Assembly: GCA_014843695.1 (NCBI GenBank)
Contig: CM026387.1
Span: 77,378,106 to 77,442,105, forward strand
DNA: 64,000 bases
From: Archivesica marissinica
Taxonomy: Eukaryota > Mollusca > Bivalvia > Venerida > Vesicomyidae
Direction: 5' to 3'
Every line of letters starts with the position of its first letter. Positions within the stretch are counted from its first letter, which is position 1. Below, in pieces: positions 6,801 through 40,900 of this stretch. Under the pieces are notes generated by a model. That model searched no databases. It worked only from the letters and a program-made list of their open reading frames with translations, and was not told the DNA's origin. Made by a program: the position numbers and the translations under genes.

Positions 6801-7018
6801 GTATATACTGTATTAGTAATGTGACTATATTACCCGAGTATATACTGCATTAGTAATGTGACTATATTACTGGAGTATATACTGCATTAGTAATGTGACT
6901 ATATTACCCGAGTATATACTGTATTAGTAATGTGACTATATTACCCTAGTATATACTGTATTAGTAATGTGACTATATTACCCGAGTATATACTGTATTA
7001 GTAATGTGTCTATATTAC
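3833..7018. repeat. 37-bp minisatellite (~86 copies) starting at a 5' splice site
   Basis: In plus orientation the unit is TAGTAATGTGACTATATTAC, CCGAGTATATACTGTAT. Variants (ACTGG for ACCCG, GCAT for GTAT) recur in groups, which suggests higher-order duplication of several units at once. In the transcription sense of the minus-strand gene the array begins at the donor of exon 7019-7098: exon end ATACTCAG|GTAATATAG, array unit ATACTCGG|GTAATATAG. A few units around 5475-5530 and 5700 are damaged. Confidence 0.95.
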
Positions 7019-7098
7019 CTGAGTATTCATGTCTTTTTTCTGTATGTCCAATGACGCCACAGAAAGTTGTCCCAGTGGTGACACCAATTGAAAGTTTT
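7019..7098 (-). CDS. ADCY10: soluble adenylyl cyclase (ADCY10-like), core C2 exon
   Basis: Minus strand, acceptor ATTATTTCAG at 7099-7108, donor TACTCAG|GTAATA at 7018. The 80-bp exon reads KLSIGVTTGTTFCGVIGHTE then KRHEYS, matching the SIGVASGIVFCGIVGHTVRHEYTV stretch of ADCY10 C2. Its first base completes an AG left by exon 7746-7862 (AG|A = Arg), and its last G is completed by TG of exon 2499-2720. Both joins are in phase. The donor is the first member of the 37-bp array at 3833-7018. Reading past the donor meets a stop (GGG TAA) within one repeat unit, so correct use of this first donor matters. Confidence 0.88.
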
Positions 7099-7129
7099 CT
7101 GAAATAATGAAAGCAAGATTTATGTAACT

Positions 7130-7560
7130 TCATCGATACCTAAACATAACACAACTATTGTTATAATAGCGACATATTATTTGCATACCCACAAACCATA
7201 ATACAACTATTGTTATAATAGCGACATATTATTTGCATACCAACAACCATAACACAACTATTGTTATAATAGCGACATATTACTTGCATACCCACTAAAC
7301 ATAACACACATATTGTTATAATAGCGACATATTACTTGCATAACCACTAAACATAACACAACTATTGTTATAATAGCGACATATTACTTGCATAACCACT
7401 AAACATAACACAACTATTGTTATAATAGCGACATATTACTCGCATACCCACTAAACATAACACAACTATTGTTATGATAGCGACACATTACTTGCATACC
7501 CACTAAGCATAATACAACTATTGTTAAGATATATATATATATAATAACAACATTTTACTT
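7130..7560. repeat. 52-bp minisatellite (~8 copies)
   Basis: The unit contains CATAACACAACTATTGTTAT, AATAGCGACATATTACTTGC and ATACCCACTAA. Copies decay toward 7500-7650. It sits in the 647-bp intron between two cyclase exons, starting about 35 bp from the acceptor of exon 7019-7098. Confidence 0.9.
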
Positions 7561-7745
7561 CATGGATACCATGACGTACTACAACTTTTGTTAGAATAAT
7601 GACATAATAATAGCTTAAACATACAACAACTACTGTTATAGCAACAACATATTAACAACGCATGCATTACCTATCATACCATATATACCATAGACCCATC
7701 CATATCTCTATACATACATGCTTAGATTATATAGACATCACTTAC

Positions 7746-7862
7746 CTGATACCTTCTGTATTGTCAAGCTCTTTCTTAATTATGTCTGAACAAGTGAGAG
7801 CTTGTGCAGTCATTTTCATCCTTGTATCCAGATAGCCCAAATAACACCACAATCGTCAATCC
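7746..7862 (-). CDS. ADCY10: soluble adenylyl cyclase (ADCY10-like), start of C2, frameshifted
   Basis: Minus strand, acceptor TATATTTTAG and donor ATCAG|GTAAGTG. The first half reads GLTIVVLFGLSGYKDEND in one frame. The second half reads AQALTCSDIIKKELDNTEGI in another. Both fit the KGCSFLCVFGFPG...HALECAMDI region of ADCY10 C2, but a single extra T after GAT GAA AAT GAC (near 7810) separates them. Without the shift, frame 1 reaches a TAA after CAT AAT. The 117-bp length with the required end phase (AG|A) cannot be open as it stands. This is either a sequencing indel or a disabling mutation. Upstream C1-domain exons were not found in the window. Confidence 0.75.
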
Positions 7863-8154
7863 CTAAAATATATATTCAGTCCAATACACATAATGCGTGA
7901 ATAACCATAAGGCCCTGGATCTCTCATCTCAGTTGAAACGCTCAAATGGCTATACACACATATGAGTGGTCGGGAAATTTGCATATTCGTTTTAAAACTA
8001 ATAGATACATGTACATCAAAGTCATGTAATATTATTATAACATGTCTCCCATTGAAAGATTACAGTTGCCACACAGGTATCCCTAGTAACTAGGTTGACA
8101 GAGGAAATAGAGCCCAGACAAGTGTTTTCAGACGGATGTGAGATACTAGTAGTT

Positions 8155-9775
8155 GTAGTCATCTTTATTTACATATCATCATTGTACGTACAATATTTAC
8201 AATAATATTACATGTATAGTTTACATAATAAAAGTACAAAGCCACTCCAACATGGAGTTATAAGAGATGAGCAAAATTATACACACTCATTTATCACAGT
8301 ATGTTAGGGATTAAGCTGCAATATCCCTGCTAATCGGATATTAAAAACTGCTCTAAGACAATTATAAAACACTGAAATACAAATTAGGTACTATTGCACA
8401 CTGATTGGTCTTATGAAATCTAACTTCGCTTTGATCAAATCATAACGAATATGATTAGCAGAGATATTAAAGACGAGATAAATAATTGCAGTTAGAAATA
8501 CATGTACAAAGAAATAATGACTAATAATTATTCACAAATTAAAAAATTATTTACATATAAAACTGACGCCTCTGTAGAATAATAAAACAGGTTTTTGGCA
8601 CAATTACGAATCATCTCTTGGTTTGAAAACAGGAAACAATATTTATTATAATCGGACATTGAGTAGAAATTGATATTTGATTATTTATACAATTCAATAT
8701 TACATGCATCTCGTTTTCAATAGTAGAAATATCACAAAACGGACAAATCCTAGATTCCTCTGGCAAACCGTCATACCGACCAGTATTGTCCTATTGTGGG
8801 CGATCCCCAGTCGAAATTTGCAAAACGATGTCTGGGTGGTAATACAATTTTACAATATTGCTCTGCTATATATATGGTCAGTTTTAAACAATTTATACAG
8901 TCTCAATTTATTCCGCCCGCCACCAGAGGGACCTATGACATTGTTTATCTTGGTTGACCAAGAGTTTATATACTTATCGTATGCTATGACCTCTACAGTA
9001 TGTGTGAACGAACGAGATATAGGATTAGTAAAGCTAGTGTACACAGGAAAACCATTAGCCTCATAATAGTTCTTAACATTAAAATGCCAATTTCTACATG
9101 AACGACTAGCTTACTATATGCCCAGAGTGCCACTCGCCTGTTGATCCTTGCGGTATCCATACCTGAAAGTCTTGAACAATAAAACGAGATACATTTCCAT
9201 TGTCGGACTATTGGGGGTTTCCAACCCATATCTCCTGAAATACCATTGGTTGGTGAATATTTGCCGACACCGAGAACATACCGTAATGCCCTATTATGAA
9301 CGGCTTCGATACACGAATATGATCGAAACCGGCCCCACAAAGGAGCGCTATAATTGATTACAGGCCAAACTACCGAATCGTATAACTTTGTAAAAACATC
9401 GTAGGACACACCGCCCATTAATTTACATTTTGCAATAAGTAAACCCAATGCATGACTGGCACTCTGAGAAACAGATTTAACTGTAATATTATTATCCAAA
9501 TGTTTATGCAAAACAACACCTAAGTAAGTATATCTGTCAACAATATTAATCTGATTTATTCCACATGTGGACCTAAAGTAGGTACCTAATTCTGACTTGG
9601 GACGAAAGTGCACAACATTATTTTTAGAAGCATTTACAGTCATATCATTTAGAGCATTCAGTAGCACTTGTATATCATCAACAGACTCCGCTATTAACAC
9701 ACTACCATCAGCATAGAACATAATACAAACTATCTCACCCCCAAGTAGTAGCATGCTGTACAAATTGTGATCACA
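8155..9775 (-). mobile_element. 5'-truncated non-LTR retrotransposon, degraded
   Basis: Minus strand. An AATAAA-like signal near 8167 marks the probable 3' end. Coding remnants run from about 9763 to 8560 and show the C-terminal half of a LINE reverse transcriptase. Order: a polymerase motif FYADG, YTYLGVVLHKHL, FTKLYDSVVWPVINYSAPLWG, HNRALRYVLGVGKYSP, GDMGWKPP, then in other frames RNWHFNVKNYYEANGF and a Cys/His motif ICPFCDISTIENEMHVILNC. The element is cut at its 5' side where the 28-bp array begins at 9785. Confidence 0.85.
8993..9763 (-). pseudogene. reverse transcriptase fragment (LINE type), inactive
   Basis: The longest open part of the retrotransposon starts inside the palm domain. 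The catalytic YADD is YADG, so one of the metal-binding aspartates is gone. Near 9100 the open frame departs from the homologous one: the homologous reading (RNWHFNVKNYY, then ANGFPVYTSFTNPISRSFTH) continues in another frame down to about 8850, and a further shift precedes the C-terminal Cys/His motif near 8770. Fingers, N-terminal endonuclease and ORF1 are absent. The element therefore cannot be autonomous. It lies on the same strand as the cyclase exons, upstream of them. Confidence 0.85.
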
Positions 9776-9784
9776 TCAACCATA

Positions 9785-11545: not shown

Positions 11546-12170
11546 TCATAGAGACGGTGATAACAAAACAATTCTCAAAGTGAATCACCCTGCCAATGCA
11601 TCAGTCCCTCAAAGACTATTGAATGGGTCTCTCTGCCTGTATCATTGCATTATCCTCCAAAATCTAAAATGACTCTTCAGGTGTCGCTCACTTATGCAAC
11701 CTGAGTAGCGACGATTACAAAAAGTAATGCATGTTAGTATTTATAAACATATAACATAGCGAAAGACACTGGACCCGCTACACTCTCTGCTTTTGAGTAT
11801 TTTTAGAGAAGGTTACGCAGCTAGGCATGCATGTCAACTAGGAAGTATGTTTAATCAAGTAGCAACCAGGACTGTTATGTCAATATTTCAACCTGAAACA
11901 ATCGTAGACAAAATGCTGAATGCCCTCGAACAATTAGTGTCAATTTTCACAAACAAATTCGTGTGAAATACGCCACCTATCGACGTTTACTGAGCAAAGG
12001 AAATTAATGTTCGTCTAATTCTCTTCACCAAGTGATAGAATGATAATTATTGTATGGATTATGTGTGCAAACAATGCGTGATTCACGTGCCGGCAGTAAT
12101 ACTCATTTATATCACTAAAACAATTAATTAGTACTAAATTAGTACTTTGTACGTGACTGTGATTTTCTAC
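11546..12170. other. no recognisable gene
   Basis: Low-complexity-free, AT-rich sequence with many stops in all frames. I see no exon signatures, repeats or element ends here. Confidence 0.5.
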
Positions 12171-12174
12171 GGAG

Positions 12175-12275
12175 GGGATATTGTCCGCCCTGTCTTTTTG
12201 ATGGGGGGGTTATTGTCCGCCTGGGTCAAAATATACGGGGGGATATTGTCCGGGGGGATATTGTCCGTTCCCCTT
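12175..12275. mobile_element. solitary terminal arm of the MULE-like element
   Basis: The arm consists of GGGGATATTGTCCGCC-type subrepeats and ends TATTGTCCGTTCCCC, identical in design to the right end of the element at 13241-14485. No matching inverted arm lies to its left, so this is a solo end. It adjoins a duplicated segment of the Psq gene at 12276. Confidence 0.75.
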
Positions 12276-12532
12276 TCTAAAGTGACACACAGGCATCATA
12301 TGAAGTGGTGAGATATCTATCTCACCTGACCAGCATGAAAACATTATGTCAAGTCTAAATTTACCAATATTAGCTCAGTATTATGCATTTTCTGAGGTGA
12401 CTTTCAATTCTCACGGTTTGGAGAAAAATGCTGAAGCTGTGAGAATTGAAAGTTCCAGTCAGGGACCTATCTAAAGTGACCCACAGGCATCATATGAAGT
12501 GGTGAGATATCTATCTCACCTGACCAGCATCC
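12276..12532. repeat. ~65-bp direct duplication containing the donor of the Psq exon
   Basis: Two copies (12276-12338 and 12466-12532) share TCTAAAGTGAC, CACAGGCATCATATGAAGTG, GTGAGATATCTATCTCACCT and GACCAGCAT. In the minus (gene) sense each contains the exon end GATGCTGGTCAG|GTGAGATAG. The interval between them is about 125 bp of other sequence. A perfect small palindrome (GAGATATCTATCTC-like) lies inside each copy. Confidence 0.8.
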
Positions 12533-12934
12533 CCTAAGTGTCTGAGATGGTACTCCATACAGTCTTGCAGCCCTGTCTACTGGTAATTTCTCCTCTTTGA
12601 CTGCCTTATACGCACTATCCATTGTCTCCTTAGTATATCTTTTCAGGCTTTTAGACACCCTTCTTGGATGAGTCTGAAATGAAACAAGAGTGAAAACATT
12701 TAGTGTCTTGCCTGCAAAATTATTCTATTCTATTACGTCATTTTAGCATGTTTACAGCACAGGTGAGAGAAATGTATATCTACACCGGTTAGTTGATATC
12801 ACAACAAAAACAGTGGACGCACATATTCTTATATTTTAGCGAAAATATTCATATATGTCAGATATTTAACAGAAATATGCATATGAGAACAATGATTTAA
12901 CATAATATCACCCATTTACCTGCTTTTTTCGCAT
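12520..12934 (-). CDS. two-exon gene model with Psq-type helix-turn-helix
   Basis: Minus strand. Exon 1 (12934-12920) would be ATG CGA AAA AAG CAG followed by donor GTAAAT. Exon 2 (12673-12520) follows acceptor TTTCATTTCAG and reads THPRRVSKSLKRYTKETM, then AYKAVKEEKLPVDRAARLYG and VPSQTLRGCWS, ending at donor TCAG|GTGAGA. The pattern RYTxExMxxAxxAVxxxxxxVxxAAxxYGVPxxTLR is that of the pipsqueak/HTH_psq DNA-binding fold, found in transcription factors and in pogo/Tigger/Jerky transposases. Both exons join in phase 0. Downstream exons that would decide between host gene and transposase were not identified. The initiator ATG is a guess based on phase and position; exon 2 is much firmer. Confidence 0.55.
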
Positions 12935-13240
12935 TTTAACTGCACCAGCTTGGCTCTACTGTCATAAAATGGCGTCCAAGATAGAATGTATGCTCGTTCG
13001 GACATTCGTTGTGTAGATATTCCCGCAAAAAACCGAATCCACGAGTCACGGAGGACCCACGACACAAAGCAAAGGACCCATACGTGTAATTATCAGTAAT
13101 TAGGACAAGTGTAAAAATCGTTCACTCAACATCGATAATTAGACTAACAAACAGATTCATTAATATACAAATATTTACATCCTTTTATCGTCTAAATGCA
13201 AACAAAACCAGTTTTCTAAGTCTACATATCTGGATAAGTA

Positions 13241-14485
13241 GAGTCACAGTGTAGGACAATATCCCCCCCGGACAATATCCCCCCTGTATATTTTGACCCA
13301 GGCGGACAATATCCCCCCTGTCAAAAAAGACAGGGCGGACAATATTCCCCCCATCAAAAATACAAGGCGGACAATATCCCCCCCGTGGATAATCCTAGGG
13401 CGGACAATATCCCCCCATCAAACATACAAGGCGGACAATATCCCCCCGTGGATAATCCTAGGGCGGACAATATCCCCCCGTAGAAAATCATAGGACGGAG
13501 AAAGAGTAACTAACAAGAATGGGTTAACAACCTTTATTTCCGTATACAAGCACATAAGCATGATAAATAATGATGTAGGACAGTGCGATATTTTGTGTGA
13601 ATTTTGGTGTTTATTATAGTCTTATTCACGAAAGTGCTAATTGAGACTTGTCATTTAGCACATAGTGGCGAAACCTAAGAATTGTTCACAGTCTTATACA
13701 CTCGCCAATCGCGAACAGAAAACTGGCTGTCGTTTTCGCTCCATCCCGGTACTGGCGGCATAATTTGTTAAGTCTCTTCTGGAGAGAAACGCTCGTCTTC
13801 TTAGCGCGTTTGGCCGATGGTTGTCCAGTCCGCTGACGTTCCATCTCGGTGTTCACGGCTGTCTGGTCTTTCTGCAGACAGGAGAGTACTGTCCACAGAC
13901 TGGGATTACTATGTCCAACTAAATGTCTAAATGAGTTATTCCAACTTTCGCAATTGTTATTAGTTCTGTCGCCTCCATTGAGTGTAGTTTCATGTACATT
14001 CCATGTGGGTGGTGGAAAGCGCGGTGGTGTACGTTTAGGTGCAGTTGAAAGAAGCAATCAAATCTTCAATTAGCCAAACAAACAATTAACATAATCAAAG
14101 TCCATTTACCAATCAGTGCAGTTGAAAGAAGCAATCAAACAAATCAAGTGAACACATTATGAGCCCAAAACTAAGGTCAAAGATGGACAAAATATCACAA
14201 TGTGACACAATATTACTTATACAGAAATAAAATAAAGCTTGTTAATTTGCGTTAATTTATAAGTTTATAAGGGGGGATAATGTCCGGGGGGATATTGTCC
14301 GCCCTGTGATTTTCTACGGGGGGGATATTGTCCGCCTTGTCTTTTTGATGGGGGGGATATTGTCCGCCCTGTGATTTTCTACGGGGGGATATTGTCTGCC
14401 CTGTCTTTTTGATGGGGGGATATTGTCCGCCTGGGTCAAAATATACGGGGGGGATATTGTCTGGGGGGGATATTGTCCGTTCCCC
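13241..14485. mobile_element. MULE-like DNA transposon with repeat-rich terminal arms and 9-bp TSD
   Basis: The arms (13241-13500 and about 14268-14485) are inverted relative to each other and consist of repeated GGCGGACAATATCCCCCC blocks separated by GTATATTTTGACCCAG, CAAAAAGACAGG and TAGAAAATCA spacers. The element is bounded by the direct repeat GGATAAGTA at 13232-13240 and 14486-14494. A 9-bp target duplication and long subrepeated arms are typical of Mutator-like elements. Between the arms lies a transposase fragment (13686-14057), so this is an internally deleted copy. Confidence 0.85.
13686..14057 (-). pseudogene. MULE transposase C-terminal fragment
   Basis: The open frame reads PRFPPPTWNVHETTLNGGDR, TNNNCESWNNSFRHLVGHSN, PSLWTVLSCLQKDQ and ends ASFLFAIGECIRL. 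The block FPxxxWNVxxxTLxGxxRTNNxxExWNxxFxxLVGxxxPxLW is what I know from the C-terminal region of metazoan MULE-type transposases and MULE-derived proteins. The catalytic DDE core is absent and no start context fits, so it is a remnant inside a deleted element. Confidence 0.65.
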
Positions 14486-14499
14486 GGATAAGTATTAAA

Positions 14500-15700: not shown

Positions 15701-15706
15701 ACAGTA

Positions 15707-15735
15707 TATGTATGTATGTATGTATGTATGTTCCT
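15707..15735. repeat. (TATG)n microsatellite next to SINE-tail remnant
   Basis: TATGTATGTATGTATGTATG is followed by TTCCTTTAATGTCAAAC, the 3' end motif of the type C SINE (16150-16373). This is probably the tail of a degraded copy. Confidence 0.7.
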
Positions 15736-16373: not shown

Positions 16374-16394
16374 CACACTACTTATACTGTCTCG

Positions 16395-16500: not shown

Positions 16501-16619
16501 AATGTCAGTTAAAGTGTTTTTCGGGCCCATGTTTGACTACACAGACTCGTACTTCGGTTGGAGAGGGCTATTTCTGTATGAACGGTTGATGTCTGGATTC
16601 AAAAGATATGAAGAGAAGA

Positions 16620-18350: not shown

Positions 18351-18353
18351 CGG

Positions 18354-21482: not shown

Positions 21483-21543
21483 TTATTGTCTACTTGACTT
21501 GAAGTAGCGAACTGAATAGCGTACAATGTAGTTTAGCCGAAAT

Positions 21544-22758: not shown

Positions 22759-22936
22759 AATCCATATCAAGATGAATCCACATTATCCCGGGGGTTTGCT
22801 TCCCATGGTAATGCCTCAACAGATAGGAGGTCAGCAGTATATGATGGCTGTAAGACTGCCGGCCGGTGGGATACCAGGAGCAGCGGCAGCACAACCATAC
22901 ATGACAGCCGGAGTACCGGGGGTACCAACTCTTCAG
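22759..22936 (+). CDS. HNRNPU-like exon 1 of the visible part
   Basis: Acceptor TTATTATTGTAG precedes it. The frame [20 protein letters not shown], then [17 protein letters not shown] ends at donor CTTCAG|GTAAGG in phase 0. ATG 22772 (AAGATGA context) is the first in-frame Met after the acceptor. One base remains before the first full codon, so an upstream exon would end in phase 2 if coding extends upstream. The end of this exon and its donor are duplicated downstream (22937-23113). Confidence 0.7.
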
Positions 22937-25900
22937 GTAAGGTGTCATTCCATTGATGCTGTGAGATTGGCATCCAGAGTAACAGCAGCACAACCATACA
23001 TGACGGCCGGAGTACTGGGGGTACCAACTCTTCAGGTAAGGTGTCATTCCATTGATGCTGTGAGATTGGCATCCAGAGTAACAGCAGCACAACCATACAT
23101 GACGGCCGGAGTACGTGATGTTAGAGTAAACATTTCACACGTTGCATAATGACTTGTAGGATATACCATGGGTTTCCTTTTCATTTCTGAACATGCCAAA
23201 TTCACTTTATAACATGCATAGCAGGCATTTTCTGTGGAAATTGTTGAAATCCTAGGTTTCATCTTGTGCATTTTAGGGGCATTTAGTGTTTATACAGTAA
23301 CACAAACATTTGAAATTTTGCAATCTGTCTAATTAACTTTTTCCAATCATTGTTTACAGAATTTATGGGCATTAACATCATGATATCACATTCAAAAACC
23401 AATCAGTAAATGGATCGGAAAGATGCAAATCTTCCGAAAATTATAAAAAAGACACAAAAACCCCATTCAACTACCAGAATTCGGAAAGATAATTTTGAAC
23501 CGGTGTATTTGGCCGGTGACCAGTTGCTATTGAGAATTTGAGAACACTGTATGCAGCATATCTCATTATCGTTGACTAGAGAAACTCGAGATGTGCCAAT
23601 TTATAATCTTATTGGCTTCCACGAAACATCAGTAATGCCATTAAATATTTACATGTTTTTTATGGCTGGATATGTACACTCTCTTTAATAAACTTGATCA
23701 GCAATAAAGTGAAGGTTTCTGACCTAGATTGTTTAACCCTTTCCCTCATAGAAGCACCTCTTGACGCCATTGCCAATACGACATACATTGACAATATAGT
23801 AGCCAAACCAATGTTCATAAACCCTTTCCCTCATTCCCTCATAGAAGCACCTCTTGACGCCATTGCCAATATGACATACATTGACAATATAGTAGCCAAA
23901 CCACTGTTCATAAACACTTTCCCTCATAGAAGCACCTCTAGACGCCATTGCCAATACAACACAGAGATGATTCTAGAGGGCGATGTGGACGAAATTGTCG
24001 CCCTAGGGACCCTGACTTCGCCCTCTGGGGACCCCACTTCTCCTTTATTATTTTTTGGTTTTTATGATTTTCAAACAAAATTTTGTCTAGTAAGATATAC
24101 TGGCCCATTATAAAGCACTCCTTCTATTCAAATGTTGTATTTAATGGTTGTACTGTGCATTTTAACCATATTTTGCAAAAGTATATTAAAGAACACCATT
24201 TAAGGAAGCGATCACCCGCTTTCTCACTTCTCCTAAAAATTCTGACCTAGAATGAACCCTGCAACATACATTGACAATATAGTAGCCAAACCAATGTTCA
24301 TAAACCCTTTCCCTCATAGAAGCACCTCTTGACGCCATTGCCAATACGACATATATTGACAATATAGTAGCCAAACCAATGTTCATAAACCCTTTCCCTC
24401 ATAGAAGCACCTCTTGACGCCATTACCAATACAACATACATTGACAATGTAGTAGCCAAACCAATGCTCATAATAAAGGCAAGAATCTCATGTAGTCCCA
24501 GTAATATCTATTGAGGTGGAATAGATATGGCGACTACTTATCCACTGCATGATAGCTAAATGATTGTCATTTGTAAGGAGATATAATAGTATATTAACCT
24601 AAATCTCTCTGAAGGAAAGGGTTAAATGGCTGTCGTTTGTAAGGAGATATAATGGTATATTAACCTAAATCTCTGAAGGAAAGGGTTAAATGGCTGTCGT
24701 TTGTAAGGAGATATAATAGTATATTAACCTAAATCTCTCTGAAGGAAAGGGTTAAATAAGTAGTAAACTGAATTAAATACCGCAGTAAAGCATTGCTTGT
24801 AGGCAAGTACAGGGCTCGACAAATTCTTTTTCGAACTGACTTGCCCGGGACAAGTGACACTGGCAAACTGACTTGCCCCAATGTGAATGTGACTTGCCCC
24901 AATTATTATGCTAAATGTCGAATGATGGCTTACACTAGTTAAGTCTATGAATAACATCATCATAGTATATAATGAAAAGTTGTTTCGCGTTTTGAATCAT
25001 ATTTAATATCCTTTTTACCTTCAGTGAGTTTCACTTTCTTGGAAGTAGGCACACATTTTAAATCTAGTTTCCGTTTTTTACTATTACTTTCACTTTCATT
25101 TTCATTGGAGTTTAAGAATTTTAGCAAACTTATTGTAATTGAACATGCATTTGAATGATAACAGGGGATTTGGGGCTTGATTATAAAACAATTTGTATAC
25201 ATTTGTAATCTGATAATTACATGAGTTCTAACTATTTAATTTTGTCAATTATAACTTACAAATTTACAATACATCAATGAAATCGGCCTGTCTTCCGAGA
25301 TTAATCAACACCATAGGTGTAGAAATCATGTACTTAGTGTGTATGTACTCGTGGATAATGTCCTTGCTACGACTAATGTGTAATTAACAAGTATATAAGC
25401 AAGGCATTGACAGATTCTTTGATATTTCGTCGGCGACTGAAATTTGTAGAAATTAAGAAAGCGCCCGGATGTTAAAATCGCCGTAGTCTATTTAATACGA
25501 CTAATTTGATAAGTGCAAATAAAACAATTGAAGCGTAACGAGAGCCTCGATTGGTTAAATGTTTGGGGCGATACCCGTCATTCACAGCATGTAGTCTGCA
25601 GGGTTTACAATCGATCATAGGGTCCAATCATGACAAAAACAGTTGATTAGTTTGTTTATTCTGTTAATTGATATGTTTATTCGACACCTGTCCGATAATC
25701 ACATCCATATCATTTTGACTTGCCCGGGACTAAACTCTGGTTGACGGCCACTTGCCCGAACATTGTTTTGACTTGCCCCGGGCGTCGGGCAATAGGATTT
25801 GTCGAGCCCTGAAGTATTGTACATGATGTGCATGAGGTTTGTCTATGTGAGCAAGTAACTTGATGGTTTTACTCTTGTAGGGTTTGCCAACACTAGGACA

Positions 25901-28900
25901 ACCACAGATGATCTCTGCTGGTCATTTGGCAGCATCACCATCACCACAGGCAGCAGCATTAGCCGCCGTCCAGTCACCACAGCCATCGTCGACGACCGCA
26001 CCACCAACTCCATCAATAATGACCATGTCTACAACATTGCCCCAACAAGTTGCTGGAGCTGCAGCAGGCAAGTAGTTTTCACAAGGCAGGAATGTTTGCT
26101 CTGTTTATGCTCATCACTGATTGCACACACGTCCAGTAGACATTCTCATTAGACTTGATACCATGTGAAATGTTGACACAATAAACATGAAAATCCAGTA
26201 AAGTAGCTGTAATTTACGTTCCGTTATAAGGAGTTGAGATTACCACGTATCTGTCCGATATATGTTTTGGTGTTCAATAGAGTAACGTATCATTAATTGG
26301 CGTTACATATCTGTCTGTTATATAGAGTAACGTAGCATTAATTGGCGTTACATATCTGTCTGTTATATAGAGTAACGTATCATTAATTGGCGTTACATAT
26401 CTGTCTGTTATATAGAGTAACGTATCATTAATTGGCGTTACATATCTGTCTGTTATATAGAGTAACGTATCATTAATTGGCGTTACATATCTGTCTGTTA
26501 TATAGAGTAACGTATCATTAATTGGCGTTACATATCTGTCTGTTATATAGAGTAACGTATCATTAATTGGGTTTTTGTTGTTTTGGTGTTTTTGAGCCCA
26601 TATTGGATAATTATAATTGTGTTTCAATTGTAGGGATTCCAGCTGGTTACCTAGCACAGTATGGTGTTCCCGGGATACCCACAATGCCTGGTTTACCTGC
26701 CGGCATGTCTTTGGCAGGTGGTGCAATGGCAGGGTTGGTCTCCAGCGCAAATCCCTTATCTGCTGGACAGTTGGCTGTAGCAGGAGCACAGTATCCAGGA
26801 CTTGCTGGTAGTATTCTAACATGTGCCTTGACATACAAACGATAAATAGTTGAATTTTGTTAATTGGAATGTGATGTTTGTGTTGTTTAGTCAATCACAC
26901 AGCCTGGCGTGCGCAGCGATCACCAATGGCTAAAATTTACGAATATTGTCTAATAAAGACTCGGTGTCTATTTGTGGAAAATTACTTAGGTCAAGATGAA
27001 ATTGTGTTGCGCTTGATTAATTTCTCAGACTGGTGTATTAATATGTTCATGCCGGTTGGTACGGTCGTTTCTCAGACTGGTTTATTCATATTTTCACGCA
27101 GGTTGGTACGGTCGTTTACTTGAAATCACTTGCCCCTCACTGCTTACAACATTTTGAGATATTATATCCATCAGAGCTCCAGATAATGTTTGAGCAAAGA
27201 GAGTATTTTACCCCCTGATATAAACTCATTGCTGAAATGTGATTTTTTCAATAAGTAGTTTACCCTTCAAGATTACAACCCAATCCTAAAAAATAGAAAA
27301 ACAAATAAAAATAAACACCTTACATTTTTATTCTTACACACACTGTACATGCACAGTAAGCGTGTAACCGACAACCCCCATGCTGGTTTAAACAACTAGC
27401 CACGGAAACACTCCAGCACTGAACCGTCTTATTAGTATCACTCACTGTGTCTCTGGCTCGTTTCCTCGGCTTTTTCTCGCTGCAATTCGTTTTTTTTTAT
27501 CTAATGTCAGAGCTAGCTCTTGTCTCGTTATAAAAATTCAAAAGCATGGTTCCAAGTGAAGAGTTATTTTTCTTTCATCCCCATTTTGATTCTGCCATTA
27601 TATCATCCAGCACCATCAAATAAACACGCACAGCATTATTAATGTGGAGGCCAGGAACAAACACGGTTCTATTCGATTAAATTAACAATCTGATACGCTA
27701 AGGAATATGTTCTGTATGCTTAGCGACGTAATCGAATGCATTTTTTACCCGTCAATTTTTTTTTTTAATGCCAATTTACGCCTATACATACACTATCTGG
27801 AGCTCTGATCTCATGGAATTTTAATAATTAATTCTCCTTGGTTACTTTCCCTGGAACCTAACTTCACTGTACCCTGTCCATATTTCATGTGCAAACCATT
27901 TCCATCATACATTACATGTATCATCAAGGTGAAATTGAATTTGTTTACAGAGTGGTCTCATGCACATGCTGGTGCCCAGGTTGTGACTCAGGCTGGTGCC
28001 CAGGCTGCACAGTTTGCATCGGGCATGGGACCCAGTGCATATAGTCAGCAGGTTGCCAATCTTGCTAATGCTCAGTTAGCTGGTCTACAAGCTCAACAGA
28101 TGGCAGCCGGGATACCAGCCTCTCACCTTACACAATACGGGAGCCAGTTGCAAGCTGCTGGACTGGCGGGGCTGCAGGTAGCTGGGTTACAGCAGGCTAT
28201 CCCCACCCAGATGACACCCCCTCCCGCACCAACCACACCTGATAACAAGAAGAAAATTCAACAAGAAATAGCAGCACAAGCTTTACAGGGATTACACGCA
28301 GCAGGGTAATATACATACATATACCAATGCACACATTGTCACTACAGAAATGAGGCTAAATTTATGTATTGTTGTTTCCAACTTGGGCACATCATTTTTG
28401 TGAGAAATTATTAAAATGCAAAGTTACATTTTAAAGTAGGTCATTCAGATCATAGTAATAAGATGCTTATTTAATGTTTGACTGTTAAGGAGTTGTCAGG
28501 CGAATATATTATTCATATTTCAGAGTACATTCGTGCAAATAGAATAAGCTAAGATGAAAAGTCATTTATTTTTGTGTTTTTAATTTATCATCCATGGAAG
28601 ACACGAGATTGTGAACATAACATAGACGTCTTATGTTTAATATTGTAACCCTGCAGGTATGGTGCATTTGCCGTGGAGCAGCAACTTCAACAGCAGGTTC
28701 AGTTCACGGAACAGGACACGAGTGGTGAGGACAGTGTCGTCATGCTCGATGATTACAACTCCGACTTGAACCTTGTCATAGATGAGAACGGGTATGATGC
28801 CCAACCACTGGTGCACCCATCCGGGTTTTGTTTCTGTTGGTCTGGTGTCCGGTGTACACACGGAGTAACTAGAGGAAAGGTAAATCCATCTGTTCTGTAA

Positions 28901-31900
28901 TAGTTTGACCTTCAGTCGAGCAGGTAGTCAGGGTTACAGTTAATGTTAGCTAGAGGAAAGGTAGATCGATCTGTTCTACAATAGTTTGAACTTCAGTCGA
29001 CCAGGTAGTCAAGGTTACATTTAATGTTAGCTAGAGGAAAGGTAGATCGATCTGTTCTACAATAGTTTGAACTTCAGTCGACCTGGTAGTCAAGGTTACA
29101 TTTAATGTTAGCTAGAGGAAAGGTAGATCGATCTGTTCTACAATAGTTTGACCTTCAGTCGAGCAGGTAGTCAGGGTTACAGTTAATGTTAGCTAGAGGA
29201 AAGGTAGATCGATCTGTTCTACAATAGTTTGAACTTCAGTCGACCAGGTAGTCAAGGTTACATTTAATGTTAGCTAGAGGAAAGGTAGATCGATCTGTTC
29301 TACAATAGTTTGAACTTCAGTCGACCTGGTAGTCAGGGTTACAGACTTACAGTTAATGTTTGCTAGAGGAAAAGTAGTTCCATCTGTTCTGTAATAGTTT
29401 GAACTTCAGTTGACCAGGTAGTCAGGGTTACAGTTAATGTTAGCTAGAGGAAAGGTAGATCCATTTGTTCTATAATAGGTTAACCGTTACATGACCTGGT
29501 AGACAGGGTTATCGTTAAATGTTAGCTAGAGGAAAGGTGGATCGATCTGTTCTGTAATAGGTTAACCTTCATGTGACCTGGTAGTCAGGGTTACAAATAA
29601 TGTTAGGTAGAGGAAGTAGGTCCATCTGTTCTAAAATAGTTGGCAAAAAATGTTAATTGTAAAATGTCTTGCCGATTCAAAATAAAAGTTATCTTATCTT
29701 AGTTAAACCCTTCAGGTGACCTGGCACAGTGACCGTTGATAATTGTAACTTGTACATTCCTCAATGCAGCTACCTGTACTATTCACCTTCACATAGCAAC
29801 CCCAACGTGTATTGTTGGGATGTCAGTCATGAAAATATGAAGCAAAGTATGTCATATCCCTTTGTCTACATTGTGTTTTATAAAGCTACAGTAAATCTGA
29901 GTGAGGATTGATTGAAGAGGAAGGTACTTGGTTGATAGTCAATACGTCATTTCAGGCATATTATGAATGTAAACTGGTGGAGGCATTATCTGTAGATTTT
30001 GGAGAGGATCATCAGGAGGTCAATCCGCACATTATCCGAGTTGGCTGGTCAATGGATATCACATCCTTCCAACTAGGTATGTTTGTAATAGTTGTCCGCA
30101 CATCATCCGAGTTGGCTGGTCAATGGATATCACATCCTTCCAACTAGGTATGTTTGTAATAGTTGTCCGCACATCATCCGAGTTGGCTGGTCAATGGATA
30201 TCACATACTTCCAACTAGGTATGTTTGTAATAGTTGTCTCGGGTGAGTGATGCAGGCATGCACTCACTTGCTTTGTTGTGAAAGTCGTGATAGCACAGTG
30301 ATGGTGCGTGCGCTTTGGGTGTGAAAAGCCCGGAGTTCGCGCACAGCTGTAGCCGTTACGATTGTATCCTTAGACAAGGCACTTCCACATTGTCTCTTCT
30401 CTATCCCCCATTGCGATGGCTTCCATCAGGAATGAGGTTTCAAGAGCGATTAATCTAACATTGGAAAATCTTGTTAATCAATCTAAAATAAATTTGTATA
30501 AAGTAAGATATGTTTTAACACCGTGTAGAATGTTGTCTTCCATAGAACAGTTACGGTACTGGGTTTGAAGTCATATTGATAGTGATAAGATTTCAATGTA
30601 TCAATTTTACAGTATAAACGTCATTCCATATAACGATATTTACAGTCCAGCTAACGGCTCAACAGTATAACTCTTTCTACAGGCCTAGTGTTCATTTCCT
30701 CACCTCGTACACATTGCAATAAGATGCTTGTTTACGTGTGTCACATTAATGGAAGATCTCGAGATTTGAGCAGACCTGCAGACATGGGTAGACGTGTGTT
30801 GTGATGAACCTATGTTCGCTGTTTCCATAACAACCATGTCTGTCCTATGTGCTTACCACAGTTTCATAGTACATCGGTGTTTTCCCCACACATTTAATGA
30901 CCCCAAATTACTTGCTGAAAATGATCTACCATTTAAAGCTATTCAGTCAATCGTACAAATGAAACTGTTCGTACAATATGTCCTGCAGGTGAAGAGCCAA
31001 ATTCCTACGGGTACGGTGGTACAGGAAAGTTCTCGACTAACAGCAAGTTTGTAAACTATGGTGAGAAGTTTGGCATTGGTGACGTGATCGGTTGTCTGCT
31101 TGACCTTGAATCGAGACCACCTAACATGTCGTATGCCAAGAATGGACGTTGGCTGGGTGTAGCACAACCTCTACATGGGTTCCAAGCTGGAAAGAAAGAG
31201 ACCGCATTATTCCCACATATACTTACAAAAAATGTCAGGTATTGTAACCTTTGAGCAAGCATCCACTAATTAAAATGTAACCAGTTGGGCACCATAGGAT
31301 TGTGAACTGACATGTGTATGACCAACCGTCCAGACGCTCTCATAAAATTGTACGTGCGTGTCTAGAACAGTTGCGTCCAAGACCAGATTCCCTACATTAC
31401 AGGTCACACTTGGAGGTTAAAGGTCAAATAAGTGTAGGCTGTTGCTTTGTCATGCATGGGTCGATTTTCAAATAACTGCATTTGTAGCCCAACCTCAAAG
31501 GTCAGGGTGACACATAGAAGTCAAATATTGGTATAATAGATTGTTTCTGCTCTGCACTCATGGAGCAGGGGATTGTGAAATAATGTTGCGCAAATGTTCC
31601 CCATATGAAGCTGGTTTGTCTCATCCAAGACCCGGGTTCAACGGTCAATGTCACACTTGCAGATTCAGACTCGGATGTAGGTACATTTAGTGTTCCAAAC
31701 TGTATGAATTATTACGCTCATATATTTCATCGGAGCCAATTAGTCGTTGAAGTAATTTTATAAGAAAGCAATATGGAGCGGAGCCATTGCTATAAACTGA
31801 CATATCGACCCAACTGTTTGTAAGCACTATGAAGACAAAGCACATGTACCAACAGTATTGTTTGCTATGTAGGTTTCCCAGCTGTCCGATTAGAGCAGTG

Positions 31901-34900
31901 CTTAGCGCGCTCGCTTCTCACCAATGCATTCCGGGTTCGATCTTCGAACTGGGATGTATGTGAGATGGTACGATGGTGGCTAGATCGGACAGGTGGGTTT
32001 TATCTGGGTACTCCGGTTTCCTCCCACACGAATGACCGCAATTACGCTTTCATCCGCGCCAACGAGAGTGGTTAATATAAGTTGTTCAAACCTGCTTCGC
32101 AGTCGTTGTAAAATAAAGAAAGCTTAAACTTAGGTTTCCCAGTATTGTATACTCGATATTATTTCTTGCTTGTGGAAGGTCCTCTTTCCTTTAATTGTTC
32201 AATACATGTATCCTCTGTTCATGCAAAATACCATATCTTATATTTGTTTTGTAGGTTTGAGGTAAACTTTGGTCAGCAAGCACCTTGGTTTCCGCCGGCA
32301 CCTGGCTTTATGTATATCATGCAGTATTCTGTGAATGAGAGGGTGAGGGGTCTGAAGCCACCAACTACAAAAACATCCTGTGAGGTATGTATGGCACATG
32401 TGTACAATGTTCTTATAAAAACTGCACCGACCCTATTTTGTCCAAACAATAGTTACATTTTGATGAAAGCTTCTTTTCAATAAATGACCACTTTTGCTTA
32501 ATACGTAGATCAAATGAATTAAAACCATGCAAACAGTGTAGTAACTTGTGTGTTTTGATCCATGCATATGCTCGCTTGCTTTGTTGTCTCGGTCGAGTGA
32601 TCTAGGCATATGCTCGCTTGCTTTGTTGTCTCGGTCGAGTGATCTAGGCATATGCTCGCTTGCTTTGTTGTCTCGGTCGAGTGATCTAGGCATATGCTCG
32701 CTTGCTTTGTTGTCTCGGGCGAGTGATCCAGGCATATGCTCGCTTGCTTTGTTGTCTCGGGCGAGTGATCCAGGCATATGCTCGCTTGCTTTGTTGTCTC
32801 GGGTGAGTGATCCAGGCATATGCTCGCTTGCTTTGTTGTCTTGGGGCGAGTGATCTAGGCATATGCTCGCTTGCTTTGTTGTCTCGGGCGAGTGATCTAG
32901 GCATATGCTAGCTTGCTTTGTTGTCTCGGGCGAGTGATCTAGGCATATGCTCGCTTGCTTTGTTGTCTCGGGTGAGTGATCCAGGCATATGCTTGCATGC
33001 TTTGTTGTCTCGGGCGAGTGATCCAGGCATATGCTTGCATGCTATGTTGTCTCGGGCGAGTGATCCAGGCTTATGCTTGCATGCTATGTTGTCTCGGGCG
33101 AGTGATCCAGGCATATGCTCGCTTGCTTTGTCTCGGGCGAGCTGCCCAGGGCTCTCTTGTATATTTATTTTGTAAATATTTCAGATGATAATGATCATAG
33201 GTTTACCTGGTTCCGGTAAAACTACCTGGGGAATCAACAAAGCCAAGTGCAACCCAGAGATGAGATACAACATCATTGGTACTGACACGCTCATCGACAA
33301 AATGAAGGTGATGGGTCTGCCAAGGAAAAACAACTACCATGGCAGATGGGATGTACTCATTGACAAGGCTTCAAAGTGTCTGAACAAGTTATTTGAAATT
33401 GGTAAGCTGTGTTTGATTGTATACAATGGTGTAAGGAGATATGCATGTATACAAGGGTGTAATGAGATATGCATGTATACAAGGGTGTAAGGAGATATAC
33501 ATGTTTACAAGGGTGTAAGGAGATATACATGTATACAAGGGTGTAAGGAGATATACATGTTTACATGGGTGTAAGGAGATATACATGTTTACATGGGTGT
33601 AAGGAGATATACATGTATAAAAGGGTGTAAGGAGATATACATGTATACAAGGGTGTAAGGAGATATACATGTATACAAGGGTGTAAGGAGATATGCATGT
33701 ATACAAGGGTGTAAGGAGATATGCATGTATACAAGGGTGTAAGGAGATATACATGTATACAAGGGTGTAAGGAGATATGCATGTATAGATGGGTGTAAGG
33801 AGATATGCATGTATACAAGGGTGTAAGGAGATATACATGTATACATGGGTGTAAGGAGATATGCATGTATAGATGGGTGTAAGGAGATATACATGTATAC
33901 AAGGGTGTAAGGAGATATACATGTATACATGGGTGTAAGGAGATATACATGTATACATGGGTGTAAGGAGATATGCATGTATACAAGGGTGTAAGGAGAT
34001 ATACATGTATACATGGGTGTAAGGAGATATACATGTATACATGGGTGTAAGGAGATATGCATGTATACAAGGGTGTAAGGAGATATACATGTATACATGG
34101 GTGTAAGGAGATATGCATGTATAGATGGGTGTAAGGAGATATACATGTATAGATGGGTGTAAGGAGATATACATGTTTACAAGGGTGTAAGGAGATATAC
34201 ATGTATACAAGGGTGTAAGGAGATATACATGTATACAAGGGTGTAATGAGATATGCATGTATACAAGGGTGTAAGGAGATATACATGTATACAAGGGTGT
34301 AAGGAGATATACATGTATACAAGGGTGTAAGGAGATATACATGTATACAAGGGTGTAAGGAGATATACATGTATACAAGGGTGTAAGGAGATATACATGT
34401 ATACAAGGGTGTAAGGAGATATACAAGGGTGTAAGGAGATATACATGTATACAAGGGTGTAAGGAGATATACATGTATACAAGGGTGTAAGGAGATATGC
34501 ATGTATACAAGGGTGTAAGGAGATATACAAGGGTGTAAGGAGATATACATGTATACATGGGTGTAAGGCGATATACATGTATACATGGGTGTAAGGAGAT
34601 ATACATGTATACAAGGTTGTAAGGAGATATACATGTATACAAGGTTGTAAGGAGATAGGCATGTATACAAGGGTGTAATGAGATATGCATGTATACATGG
34701 GTGTAAGGAGATATACATGTATACATGGGTGTAAGGAGGTATGCATGTATACATGGGTGTAAAGAGGTATGCATGTATACATGGGTGTAAGGAGATATGT
34801 ATGTATACATGGGTGTACGGAGTTATGCATGTATACATGGGTGTAAGGAGATATGCATGTATACATGGGTGTAAGGAGATATACATGGGTGTAAGGAGAT

Positions 34901-37900
34901 ATGCATGTATGCATGGGTGTAAGGAGATATGCATGTATACATGGGTGTAAGGAGATATGCATGTATACATGGGTGTAAGGAGATATACATGTATACATGG
35001 GTGTAAGGAGATATATATGTATACATGGGTGTAAGGAGATATGCATGTATACATGGGTGTAAGGAGATATGCATGTATACATGAGTGTAAGGAGATATGC
35101 ATGGGTGTAAGGAGATATGCATGTATACATGGGTGTAAGGAGATATGCATGTATACATGGGTGTAAGGAGATATGCATGTATACATGGGTGTAAGGAGAT
35201 ATACATGTATACATGGGTGTAAGGAGATATATATGTATACATGGGTGTAAGGAGATATGCATGTATACATGGGTGTAAGGAGATATGCATGTATACATGA
35301 GTGTAAGGAGATATGCATGGGTGTAAGGAGATATGCATGTATACATGGGTGTAAGGAGATATGCATGTATACATGGGTGTAAGGAGATATGCATGGGTGT
35401 AAGGAGATATGCATGGGTGTAAGGAGATATGCATGTATACATGGGTGTAAGGAGATATGCATGTATACATGGGTGTAAGGAGATATGCATGGGTGTAAGG
35501 AGATATGCATGTATGCATGGGTGTAAGGAGATATACATGGGTGTAAGGAGATATGCATGTATACATGGGTGTAAGGAGATATGCATGTATACATGAGTGT
35601 AAGGAGATATGCATGTATGCATGGGTGTAAGGAGATATGCATGGGTGTAAGGAGATATACATGGGTGTAAGGAGATATACATGGGTGTAAGGAGATATGC
35701 ATGTATACATGGGTGTAAGGAGATATGCATGTATAGATGGGTGTAAGGAGATATGCATGTATACATGGGTGTAAGGAGATATACATGTATACATGGGTGT
35801 AAGGAGATATGCATGTATACATGGGTGTAAGGAGATATACATGTATACATGGGTGTAAGGAGATATGCATGTATACATGGGTGTAAGGAGATATGCATGT
35901 ATAGATGGGTGTAAGGAGATATGCATGTATACATGGGTGTTAGGAGATATACATGTATACATGGGTGTAAGGAGATATGCATGTATACATGGGTGTAAGG
36001 AGATATGCATGTATACATGGGTGTAAGGAGATATGCATGTATACATGGGTGTAAGGAGATATACATGGGTGTAAGGAGATATGCATGTATACATGGGTGT
36101 AAGGAGATATGCATGTATAGATGGGTGTAAGGAGATATACATGTATACATGGGTGTAAGGAGATATGCATGTATACATGGGTGTAAGGAGATGCATGTAT
36201 GCAATACAAATATCCTCTTATTTATTATTAATTTGTTCTAAAATTCAAGTAGGCAGTATATCTGCATGCATTAATGACATTATTTATATTGGTAGAAAAT
36301 ATGCCTTTAATCTTTTCCATGCAGTAACGTTAATCCAAAACAAAATGCATTTCCCTGGGAGCATTTTACAGGCTTTGGTCATGTTCAAGGTAATAACGGT
36401 TATTTCCCTGGGAGCATTTTACAGGCTTTGGTCATGTTCAAGGTAATAAAGGTTATTTCCCTGGGAGCATTTTACAGGCTTTGGTCATGTTCATGGTAAT
36501 AACGGTTATTTCCAGGATTCTTATTTAAAGAGGTAGCCTCAGTACATTACAGTATACAGCCACCTTGATACTAAGTGATGCAGAGCGCAGCGTCCACTCT
36601 CACAGACAGTAAGACAAAACACCTTACCAGGCAATAACAGCTTTACTTTCATTGGCCCTGGTGATATGAGGTGCATAGATTATATGGGAAAGACTTTAGG
36701 TTCTAGCTACGGTTGTGCAGCTTGTTTCAGTGTCTGCTTAAATAGAAATCGTTGTTCTCCCAACACAACGTTCCACTTTAAACTGACATGTTTCACCTTG
36801 GGAATATTTCCTCACTCGACGTATTTCAATACTTTATTGCGTAAGACGTTCGGATATGTAAATGATGGAGAAGGACAAACTGACTCATGCATGCCTTTGC
36901 TTCCACAGCCAGTAAGAAAAAGAGGAACCTGATACTGGACCAGACCAACGTGTATCCATCAGCACGACGACGCAAGATGAGGAACTTTAAAACTTTCATA
37001 CGCAGAGCAGCAATACTTGTACCAGATGACCTGGAATTAAAGAGAAGATCAGACAAGCGCACGTACGAGGACGGTATGTGAAAGGATAAAACAGAATATA
37101 CAAACGGTTTATAAGCCGGTGATATAATCTCCTTGCTGCCGTTCTAACTGCCAGTGTTAAATATATGATATTAGTATAGTTTATGTGGTATCTGTTCAAT
37201 GTAATTAATAATGAATAGTCGCATGAGCACAGCCGATCACTTTCCACATTGTCACCCCATACATCACGTATATAATGTACATATAACATTAAAGCCAGAC
37301 AGTACTCGGCAACCAGACTGTACTTGTCATATAAACATGGTTTCCTGGCAGCCAGACTGTATATGTCATGTAAACATGGTTTCCTGGCAGCCAGACTGTA
37401 TAATATTATGTCCTGTAAACATGGTTTCCTGGCAGCCAGACTGTATATGTCATGTAAACATGGTTTCTTGGCAGCCAGACTGTATATGTCATATAAACAT
37501 GGTTTTCTGGAAGCCAGACTGTATATGTCATGTAAACATGGTTTCCTGGCAGCCAGACTGTATATGTCATGTAAACATGGTTTCCTGGCAGCCAGACTGT
37601 ATATGTCATGTAAACATGGTTTCCTGGCAGCCAGACTGTATATGTCATGTAAACATGGTTTCCTGGCAGCCAGACTGTACTTGTAATATAAACATGGTTT
37701 CCTGGCAGCCAGACTGTACTTGTCATATAAACATGGTTTCCTGGCAGCAAGACTGTACTTGTAATATAAACATGGTTTCCTGGCAGCCAGACTGTACTTG
37801 TCATATAAACATGGTTTCCTGGCAGCCAGACTGTACTTGTCATATAAACATGGTTTCCTGGCAGCCAGACTGTACTTGTCATATAAACATGGTTTCCTGG

Positions 37901-40900
37901 CAGCCAGACTGTACTTGTCATATAAACATGGTTTCTTGGCAGCCAGACTGTATATGTCATGTAAACATGGTTTCCTGGAAGCCAGACTGTATATGTCATG
38001 TAAACATGGTTTCCTGGCAGCCAGACTGTATATGTCATGTAAACATGGTTTCCTGGCAGCCAGACTGTATATGTCATGTAAACATGGTTTCCTGGCAGCC
38101 AGACTGTATATGTCATGTAAACATGGTTTCTCGGCAGGCAGATTGTACATGTAAACATTAAAGGTTTCGAGGCAGCCAGATTGTACATGTAAATATTAAA
38201 GGTTTCGAGGCAGCCAGACTGTGATGATTAGGGAAAGTTGCAGTGTGTTCTTGTTCTTCAGGGAAATACGTACCGGAGGAGGCAGTACTCGACATGAAGG
38301 CTAACTTTAAACTGCCTGCAGAAAATGACGACAATTTTGACTACATAGAGTATGTGGAACAGCCACGTGAGAAATCTATGCCTCTTGTGGAACAGTAAGT
38401 TATCCGCTATGTAAATGTTAGATATATCTCTAACTCTGGTGTGTTTGGGTGGAACAGTAAGTTATCCGCTATGTATATGTTAGATATCTCTAACTCTGGT
38501 GTGTTTGGGTGGAACAGTAAGCTATCCGCTATGTAAATGTTAGATATCTCTAACTCTGGTGTGTTTGGGTGGAACAGTAAGTTATCTGCTATGTATTTGT
38601 TAGATATCTCTAACTCTGGTGTGTTTGGGTGGAACAGTAAGTTATCTGCTATGTATATGTTAGATATCTCTAACTCTGGTGTGTTTGGGTGGAACAGTAA
38701 GTTATCTGCTATGTATATGTTAGATATCTCTTAACTCTGGTGTGTTTGGGTGGAACAGTAAGTTATCTGCTATGTATATGTTAGATATCTCTTAACTCTG
38801 GTGTGTTTGGGTGGAACAGTAAGTTATCTGCTATGTATATGTTAGATATCTCTAACTCTGGTGTGTTTGGGTGGAACAGTAAGTTATCTGCTATGTATAT
38901 GTTAGATATCTCTTAACTCTGGTGTGTTTGGGTGGAACAGTAAGTTATCTGCTATGTATATGTTAGATATCTCTAACTCTGGTGTGTTTGGGTGGAACAG
39001 TAAGTTATCTGCTATGTATATGTTAGATATCTCTAACTCTGGTGTGTTTGGGTGGAACAGTAAGTTATCTGCTATGTATATGTTAGATATCTCTAACTCT
39101 GGTGTGTTTGGGTGGAACAGTAAGTTATCTGCTATGTATATGTTAGATATCTCTAACTCTGGTGTGTTTGGGTGGAACAGTAAGTTATCTGCTATGTATA
39201 TGTTAGATATCTCTTAACTCTGGTGTGTTTGGGTGGAACAGTAAGTTATCTGCTATGTATATGTTAGATATCTCTAACTCTGGTGTGTTTGGGTGGAACA
39301 GTAAGTTATCTGCTATGTATATGTTAGATATCTCTAACTCTGGTGTGTTTGGGTGGAACAGTAAGTTATCTGCTATGTATATGTTAGATATCTCTAACTC
39401 TGGTGTGTTTGGGTGGAACAGTAAGTTATCTGCTATGTATATGTTAGATATCTCTAACTCTGGTGTGTTTGGGTGGAACAGTAAGTTATCTGCTATGTAT
39501 ATGTTAGATATCTCTAACTCTGGTGTGTTTGGGTGGAACAGTAAGTTATCTGCTATGTATATGTTAGATATCTCTAACTCTGGTGTGTTTGGGTGGAACA
39601 GTAAGTTATCTGCTATGTATATGTTAGATATCTCTAACTCTGTGGACGGAAGTAGGACCCCCATCTTACCCTCGCATGATCAGAAGAGGCCAATAACATT
39701 GTCTGAATATTGGGTTTTCTGTGGGATTCCATTTTTCCTATTTTATTTGTATGCATATGAGATGTGAAACCATCCAACAAATGTGAAACCATCCAACAAA
39801 TGTGAAACCATCCAACAAACGTGAAACCATCCAAACAAATGTGAAACCATCCAAACAAACGTGAAACCATCCAAACAAATGTGAAACCATCCAAACAAAT
39901 GTGAAACCATTCAACAAACGTGAAACCATCCAAACAAACGTGAAACCATCCAAACAAATGTGAAACCATCCAAACAAATGTGAAACCATTCAAACAAATA
40001 CCTATCTGTACAGTGAATGTTCCTTGTTTCTGTACCACCTATCTGTACATATGTACTGTGAATGTTCCTTGTTTCTGTACCACCTATCTGTACTGTGAAT
40101 GTTCCTTGTTTCTGTACCACCTATCTGTACTGTGAATGTTCCTTGTTTTTGTACCACCTATCTGTACTGTGAATGTTCCTTGTTTTTGTACCACCTATCT
40201 GTACTGTGAATGTTCCTTGTTTTTGTACCACCTATCTGTACAGTGAATGTTCCTTGTTTTTGTACCACCTATCTGTACAGTGAATGTTCCTTGTTTTTGT
40301 ACCACCTATCTGTACAGTGAATGTTCCTTGTTTCTGTACCACCTATCTGTACAGTGAATGTTCCTTGTTTCTGTACCACCTATCTGTACAGTGAATGTTC
40401 CTTGTTTCTGTACCACCTATCTGTACTGTGAATGTTCCTTGTTTCTGTGAATGTTCCTTGTTTCTGTGAATGTTCCTTGTTTCTGTGAATGTTCCTTGTT
40501 TCTGTGAATGTTCCTTCTTTGTTTCTGTAAATGTTTCTGTGAATGTTCCTTGTTTCTGTGAATGTTCCTTATTTCTGTGAATGTTCATTCCTTGTTTCTG
40601 TGAATGTTCATTCCTTGTTTCTGTGAATGTTCCTTGTTTCTGTGAATGTTCATTCCTTGTTTCTGTGAATGTTCATTCCTTGTTTCTGTGAATGTTCATT
40701 CCTTGTTTCTGTGAATGTTCATTCCTTGTTTCTGTGAATGTTCCTTGTTTCTGTGAATGTTCATTCCTTGTTTCTGTGAATGTTCCTTGTTTCTGTGAAT
40801 GTTCATTCCTTGTTTCTGTGAATGTTCCTTGTTTCTGTGAATGTTCATTCCTTGTTTCTGTGAATGTTCATTCCTTGTTTCTGTGAATGTTCATTCCTTG

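Follow-up and report, generated by a model that had tools for sequence, protein, structure and literature searches.

The closest described counterparts of the arrays reported here are the 'mirage' minisatellites of amphioxus, known from the Adh3, troponin C, globin and PGBD5 genes, whose repeat units span an exon/intron border (PMC3087553, PMC3902484). According to the available parts of these papers, 5′ and 3′ borders are both affected, unit lengths vary and many units carry AG/GT signals (PMC3087553, PMC3902484). Units measure 10–72 bp in Adh3 and 150–160 bp in globin, and the accessible data on Adh3 and globin suggest normal splicing despite the mirages (PMC3087553); Adh and TnC are cited likewise in PMC3902484. 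The arrays met in the present genome are alike in that a tandem unit spans the exon/intron border, that border-containing units (33–116 bp, within the overall span of lengths known from amphioxus) mostly keep their sites, and that both borders are hit (12/126 donors and 8/132 acceptors), the window described below being donor-only when taken alone. They differ in frequency, with border arrays present at about 10% (donors) and 6% (acceptors) of the sampled borders, and in a general peak of array edges measured here, which the available text of PMC3087553 and PMC3902484 does not report for amphioxus. Relative to amphioxus mirages, the novelty lies in the probable lineage, in how frequent the arrays are and in the edge peak measured here. 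As to lineage, a composite muscle-myosin query built from this genome matched PDB chains of scallop and squid best (about 527–529 bits, compared with 475 for human myosin-7), so that a mollusc or a related animal is probable.

Tandem duplication of an AG/GT-containing segment has also been described as a source of intron gain, in ATP2A1 and potato RdRp (PMC4974935, available part). The duplicated AG/GT segment is common to both systems; here the copies sit inside introns, and among the arrays read by eye we found no new intron arising from a duplicated exonic AGGT segment. Minisatellites within introns are on record for an abalone TSSK1-like gene (27-bp unit, polymorphic; PMC6905558) and for earthworm metallothionein (PMC12783039). 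These share the intron location, and the accessible sections of both papers describe no copying of a border. In a literature search that covered mostly open-access papers, border-anchored arrays outside cephalochordates were not reported, a weak absence, and neither was a measured edge peak at exon borders, which is likewise weak evidence. Introner elements, finally, are dispersed sequence families tied to introns. The tie between repeat and intron is alike, but 29 units from window and sample gave 0 cross-hits; they are mutually unrelated, as an earlier note had claimed for those of the window, no shared family was found, and a shared mobile element is rejected as the source of the arrays.

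Donor-anchored arrays in the window

The window, i.e. the whole stretch of DNA analysed, comprises 64,000 nt (C2:77378106–77442105) of a 1.54 Gb genome. As TRF arrays with units of at least 12 bp make up 50.4% of it, overlap between an exon and an array is cheap by chance. On the plus strand, it contains an hnRNPU/UL-like gene (22772..38394) with 11 exons called by eye and supported by Pfam matches, among them a SPRY exon (about 30990–31238, E=3e-13) and an AAA_33 exon (about 33186–33401, E=6e-9); the start of the first exon was assumed to be its ATG. A likely GC-AG intron donor (gcagcag/gcaagt) lies at about 26068 in this gene. The minus-strand gene at about 2.4–7.1 kb, which we take to be related to soluble adenylate cyclase (ADCY10), has an exon at 7019..7098, whose translation was read by eye, and a following exon taken from ORF 2365–2733, the sole ORF of this gene given to Pfam, where it had no match. 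Exon joins in both genes were read by eye, and the five donors discussed next are credible because the reading frame runs on across these joins.

At five donors, TRF and reading by eye bear out what the earlier note had seen, namely tandem units that hold the end of the exon (8–53 bases) together with the donor. On the minus strand, a 37-bp minisatellite of 86.8 copies (3830..7026) takes in 8 exon bases and donor 7018 of the ADCY10-like gene. The other four lie on the plus strand: a 99-bp unit in 2.3 copies (22886..23114) with 51 exon bases and donor 22937, an 81-bp unit in 9.5 copies (28869..29641) with 11 exon bases and donor 28880, a 71-bp unit in 3.0 copies (30024..30238) with 53 exon bases and donor 30077, and a 60-bp unit in 20.8 copies (38387..39642) with 8 exon bases and donor 38395. 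The sixth array that had been suspected at 12519 dissolved on inspection: the donor-containing segment (12276..12528, minus strand) occurs twice, at 12528 and 12334 with a spacing of 194 bp, in a psq-type HTH ORF, forms no tandem array and is absent from the TRF list.

Beyond these, a 28-bp array on the plus strand (33418..36200) begins 16 bp past donor 33402, so that its anchor is intron-internal and the donor uncopied. Ahead of acceptors, plus-strand arrays end 63 bp upstream of acceptor 26634 (26277..26570), 54 bp upstream of acceptor 33186 (32556..33131) and 39 bp upstream of acceptor 38262 (37308..38222), and on the minus strand about 41 bp separate the end of a 52-bp array (7140..7526) from the acceptor of exon 7019–7098 downstream.

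Several further elements of the window deserve mention in their own right. At 36349–36513, a mid-intron 53-bp unit in 3.1 copies carries acceptor-like and donor-like sites ~20 bp apart (ttttacag ... caag/gtaata), which makes it a candidate tandem microexon or decoy. Inverted and direct GGACAATATCCCCCC repeats at 12236–14477 flank both the psq-type HTH ORF (12467–12724, minus strand; HTH_psq E=2e-6) and a second ORF (13686–14057, minus strand); this assembly of repeats and ORFs looks like a DNA transposon family. A 260-aa open frame at 8993–9775 (minus strand), for which Pfam gave no match at E≤0.1, resembles a reverse transcriptase by eye. Exactly 1000 N at 60883–61882 interrupt a 33-bp array; ORF translations are identical from the flanks on either side, so that the run is either an assembly gap or a withheld part of a repeated region.

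Borders and array edges in an independent exon sample

As an independent sample from the same 1.54 Gb genome, we used 136 exons from three gene families (myosin, kinesin, G-alpha), most of them collected through Pfam matches to the myosin head, kinesin and G-alpha. Rows were chosen by hand, mostly by rank (47/74 for myosin, 8/37 for G-alpha, and 62 kinesin stretches from 125 rows). Duplicated contigs were excluded, as were kinesin rows containing two or more stops. The resulting layout was 20 stretches of 10 kb, with an array coverage of 32.7%, plus 88 short stretches. Nineteen of the 136 exons were obtained by tblastn in the 10-kb stretches, where 23 matches came up and 4 of them, repeats inside a single array, were discarded. 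Borders were called in one assembly by scoring splice sites close to the ends of Pfam or tblastn matches; where an array spanned a border, the call was in most cases also inspected by eye. Borders at the ends of domains (six donors, two acceptors) were excluded, and the score limit removed another four donors and two acceptors.

An array was counted as border-containing if, besides the border and another copy, it included 5 or more exon bases, with the script calls for the L051 donor and the L072 acceptor corrected by eye ahead of the counts. Such arrays were found at 12/126 donors and 8/132 acceptors (Fisher p=0.36). Without L086, a non-blind case picked for its visible tandem copies, the figures are 12/126 and 7/131 (p=0.24), and counting by eye gave 13 donors and 7 acceptors of 136 (p=0.24). 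The donor array of L063, real by eye but below the score limit, stands outside the 12, and the L074 acceptor, a weak two-copy repeat, is counted among the 8. Reading by eye accepted the other seven script-called acceptor arrays, i.e. L067, L081 (41 bp, 9.6 copies), L082 (48 bp, 7.7 copies), L098 (50 bp, 4.9 copies), L024 (33 bp, 19.6 copies), L086 (113 bp, 6 copies) and L022 (116 bp, 1.8 copies by TRF). L067 is a kinesin exon with arrays across both its ends.

Anchoring at borders is real and two-sided. Given that acceptors are copied in the sample, the donor-only pattern of the window does not generalise: the statement that acceptors are never copied is true of the window, where arrays come within 30 bp of the acceptor in 0/11 introns taken as complete, and fails for the genome. 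The claim that border-containing arrays are commoner at donors than at acceptors shrinks to a non-significant lean, donor-only polarity is rejected with or without L086, and donor-specific seeding is unsupported by the border counts. Arrays covered the splice site itself at 14/126 donors and 9/132 acceptors, compared with 30–35% coverage 150–250 bp away.

Two sampled loci stand out individually. In L086 (C6:90883900–90885700), the start of a kinesin P-loop exon and its acceptor are present in six copies, with the AG lost in 3/5 upstream copies. L017 (C5:100281500–100291490) contains one muscle myosin exon (LEDQIIQANPVLEA...) in three tandem copies, as in mutually exclusive exons.

Array edges were compared with a background of 0.84 starts per uncovered kb (91 in 108,764 bp, away from called exons), derived from the 10-kb myosin stretches only; the near-identical paralog stretches L050 and L100 were dropped for edge-distance and array-length counts. 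Relative to random intronic positions, edges were over-represented at −5 to +30 bp of both borders, with 22 edges vs. 3.0 expected at donors (about 7-fold, P=1e-12) and 14 vs. 3.4 at acceptors (about 4-fold, P=1e-5), all P values being somewhat optimistic because several exons come from each gene. The direct contrast in this interval (donors 22/124 vs. acceptors 14/130, p=0.15) is a donor lean short of significance. From 60 to 200 bp, the acceptor excess persists (22 vs. 10.6) and the donor shows none (7 vs. 9.8), a significant difference between the two sides (22/130 vs. 7/124, p=0.005). From 200 to 330 bp, both fall below background (5 at donors and 4 at acceptors vs. 9.1). This depletion beyond the peak is mild, with 12 edges vs. 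18.9 at 60–330 bp from donors (one-sided P=0.06) and 4 vs. 9.1 at 200–330 bp from acceptors (P=0.05). Edges 5–60 bp inside exons were near background (donor 8 vs. 5.3, acceptor 7 vs. 5.8) and alike at the two borders (8/124 vs. 7/130, p=0.79).

A placement test within complete introns, with intron length and array number held fixed, gave a clearer donor lean than the border counts. In the sample, 6/14 array-bearing introns had an edge no farther than 30 bp from the donor vs. 0.91 expected (P=4e-5); for the acceptor, it was 3/14 vs. 0.91 (P=0.047), with no significance at 60 or 100 bp. In the window, an edge lay this close to the donor in 5/9 array-bearing introns vs. 0.74 expected (P=0.0003), and to the acceptor in 0/9 vs. 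0.74. The five introns are those of donors 7018 (its acceptor set by eye at about 2715), 22937, 28880, 30077 and 33402; donor 38395 had no called next exon.

A bias linked to the border, as the earlier note had proposed, therefore exists at both borders, clearer at donors within complete introns, while its donor-specific seeding did not find support. The form suggested there was a transcription- or splicing-linked lesion, such as an R-loop or nick, at the exon/intron border, which would seed duplications mainly at donors. The sevenfold excess of array starts just inside donors, the donor lean at −5 to +30 bp and the placement tests in sample and window speak for such a lesion. So does the failure of the donor motif alone as a seed, a candidate that we reject: donor-like motifs accompanied 2.2% of 90 sense array starts away from called exons vs. 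4.0% of 4003 random positions, and 3.3–5.4% in the three other edge/strand settings, which argues that a real border matters. Against it, acceptors bear the same kind of array together with a fourfold edge excess of their own, border-containing arrays do not differ significantly between donors and acceptors, and, as detailed below, the donor peak is hardly present in short arrays. We consider lesion seeding unlikely.

Array length, decoy sites and the proposed growth of introns

The donor peak is linked to array length. Arrays of at least 200 bp contributed 20 edges vs. 1.9 expected, and shorter ones 2 vs. 0.9, where a ten-fold excess would give 9 (P=0.006 for 2 or fewer). Split in the same way, acceptors showed a weak contrast (long arrays 11 vs. 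2.2, short 3 vs. 1.0), compatible with growth as well as with birth at this border. Similarly, 22/28 inside-border donor arrays reached 280 bp, compared with 38/78 background arrays (p=0.008); the corresponding proportions for donor-containing (9/12, p=0.12), acceptor-containing (7/8, p=0.06) and inside-acceptor arrays (16/23, p=0.10) were not significantly different from background. With long arrays making up the donor peak, growth or its arrest at borders fits better than seeding, and on balance the data point to growth, or its arrest, rather than birth there, short arrays being few; a modest birth hotspot is compatible with so few of them.

Copy numbers and breakpoints were inspected as well. 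Low-copy arrays tend towards integer copy numbers (26/44 fractional parts in 0–0.1 or 0.9–1), as expected of exact tandem duplication, a tendency reinforced by TRF's lower limit of about two copies. For the 11 arrays whose start lies at +1 to +11, the repeat match sets in within the intron, and no run of match to the exon is found one period away; these starts look like real breakpoints, and decay of similarity hiding a copied donor is rejected on the same grounds. Short ancestral introns are rejected as the cause, too, since, of 12 complete introns in which an array starts no more than 35 bp from the donor, 10 have over 200 bp between the end of their last array and the acceptor that follows, as is selection for coding use of the copies, with 7/18 donor units being multiples of 3 and no frame preference.

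Most copied splice sites are preserved. In 16/18 donor arrays (13 from the sample, 5 from the window), no copy found outscores the authentic site, and in 12/18 most copies score equal to it; likewise, no copy scores above the authentic acceptor in 6/7 acceptor arrays. In the array at 38387..39642, for instance, 19/20 further copies equal the authentic donor 38395 in score, and in that at 3830..7026 the donors of the 85 copies found are weaker than the authentic site (median score 3.3 vs. 5.1). Copies lacking GT/GC or AG were confined to L011 (7/8), L087 (1/1), L023 (1/6) and L086 (3/5). In those arrays that were inspected by eye, the copies are located 3′ of the donor or 5′ of the acceptor, and it is at the copy next to the exon that the reading frame carries on; this copy would be the one used by the spliceosome.

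We propose that introns of this genome are inflated by minisatellites that would arise through head-to-tail duplication of unrelated local segments. Where a duplication happened to span either exon border, one intact border would stay with the exon and the extra copies would enter the intron, yielding a 'mirage' array. As arrays grow, their edges might shift outward, or survive, until they reach the splice signals, and spread past these signals would be opposed because decoy splice sites multiply. Edges would then accumulate just inside the border, tightly at the short donor signal and more loosely at the long branch-point/polypyrimidine/AG signal. The tight donor zone and the loose acceptor zone observed are as predicted by the lengths of the two splice signals. 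An outward shift would also lead one to expect fewer edges beyond the peak, and the depletion seen there is mild, which speaks against this account. That most decoys keep their full strength sits awkwardly with strong selection against them. Altogether, we hold this account of minisatellite growth with edges halted at splice signals, and of border-spanning arrays as mirages, to be evenly poised between right and wrong.

An alternative close to it is a bias in growth, whereby arrays would be born evenly and those next to a border would expand more through chromatin or transcription state. The donor peak being carried by long arrays is consistent with this, but growth bias alone leaves the looser acceptor zone unexplained, and we regard it as quite unlikely. 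Very unlikely is plain chance in a minisatellite-rich genome, with the window's donor-only pattern as a local run: high array coverage (50.4% and 32.7% in window and 10-kb stretches) and the absence of a donor-only pattern from the sample speak for it, but the edge excess at both borders and the donor placement test lie far beyond chance, so that this reading is disfavoured for the edge peak and stands for the donor-only claim alone. Returning to growth up to the splice signals, it is possible, if doubtful, that the splicing or transcription state of the border itself arrests or drives minisatellite growth, in which case the positions of array edges throughout a genome would trace those of exon ends, with greater sharpness on the donor side, and introns would expand in physical coupling with splicing.

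If the edge peak holds genome-wide, minisatellites would be a main route of intron growth, within limits set by the splice signals. The border arrays are also natural experiments, in which authentic splice sites, at either end of an exon, have as many as about 20 equal decoys beside them. Such loci are suited to tests of spliceosomal choice between identical sites and of the birth and growth of arrays at borders.
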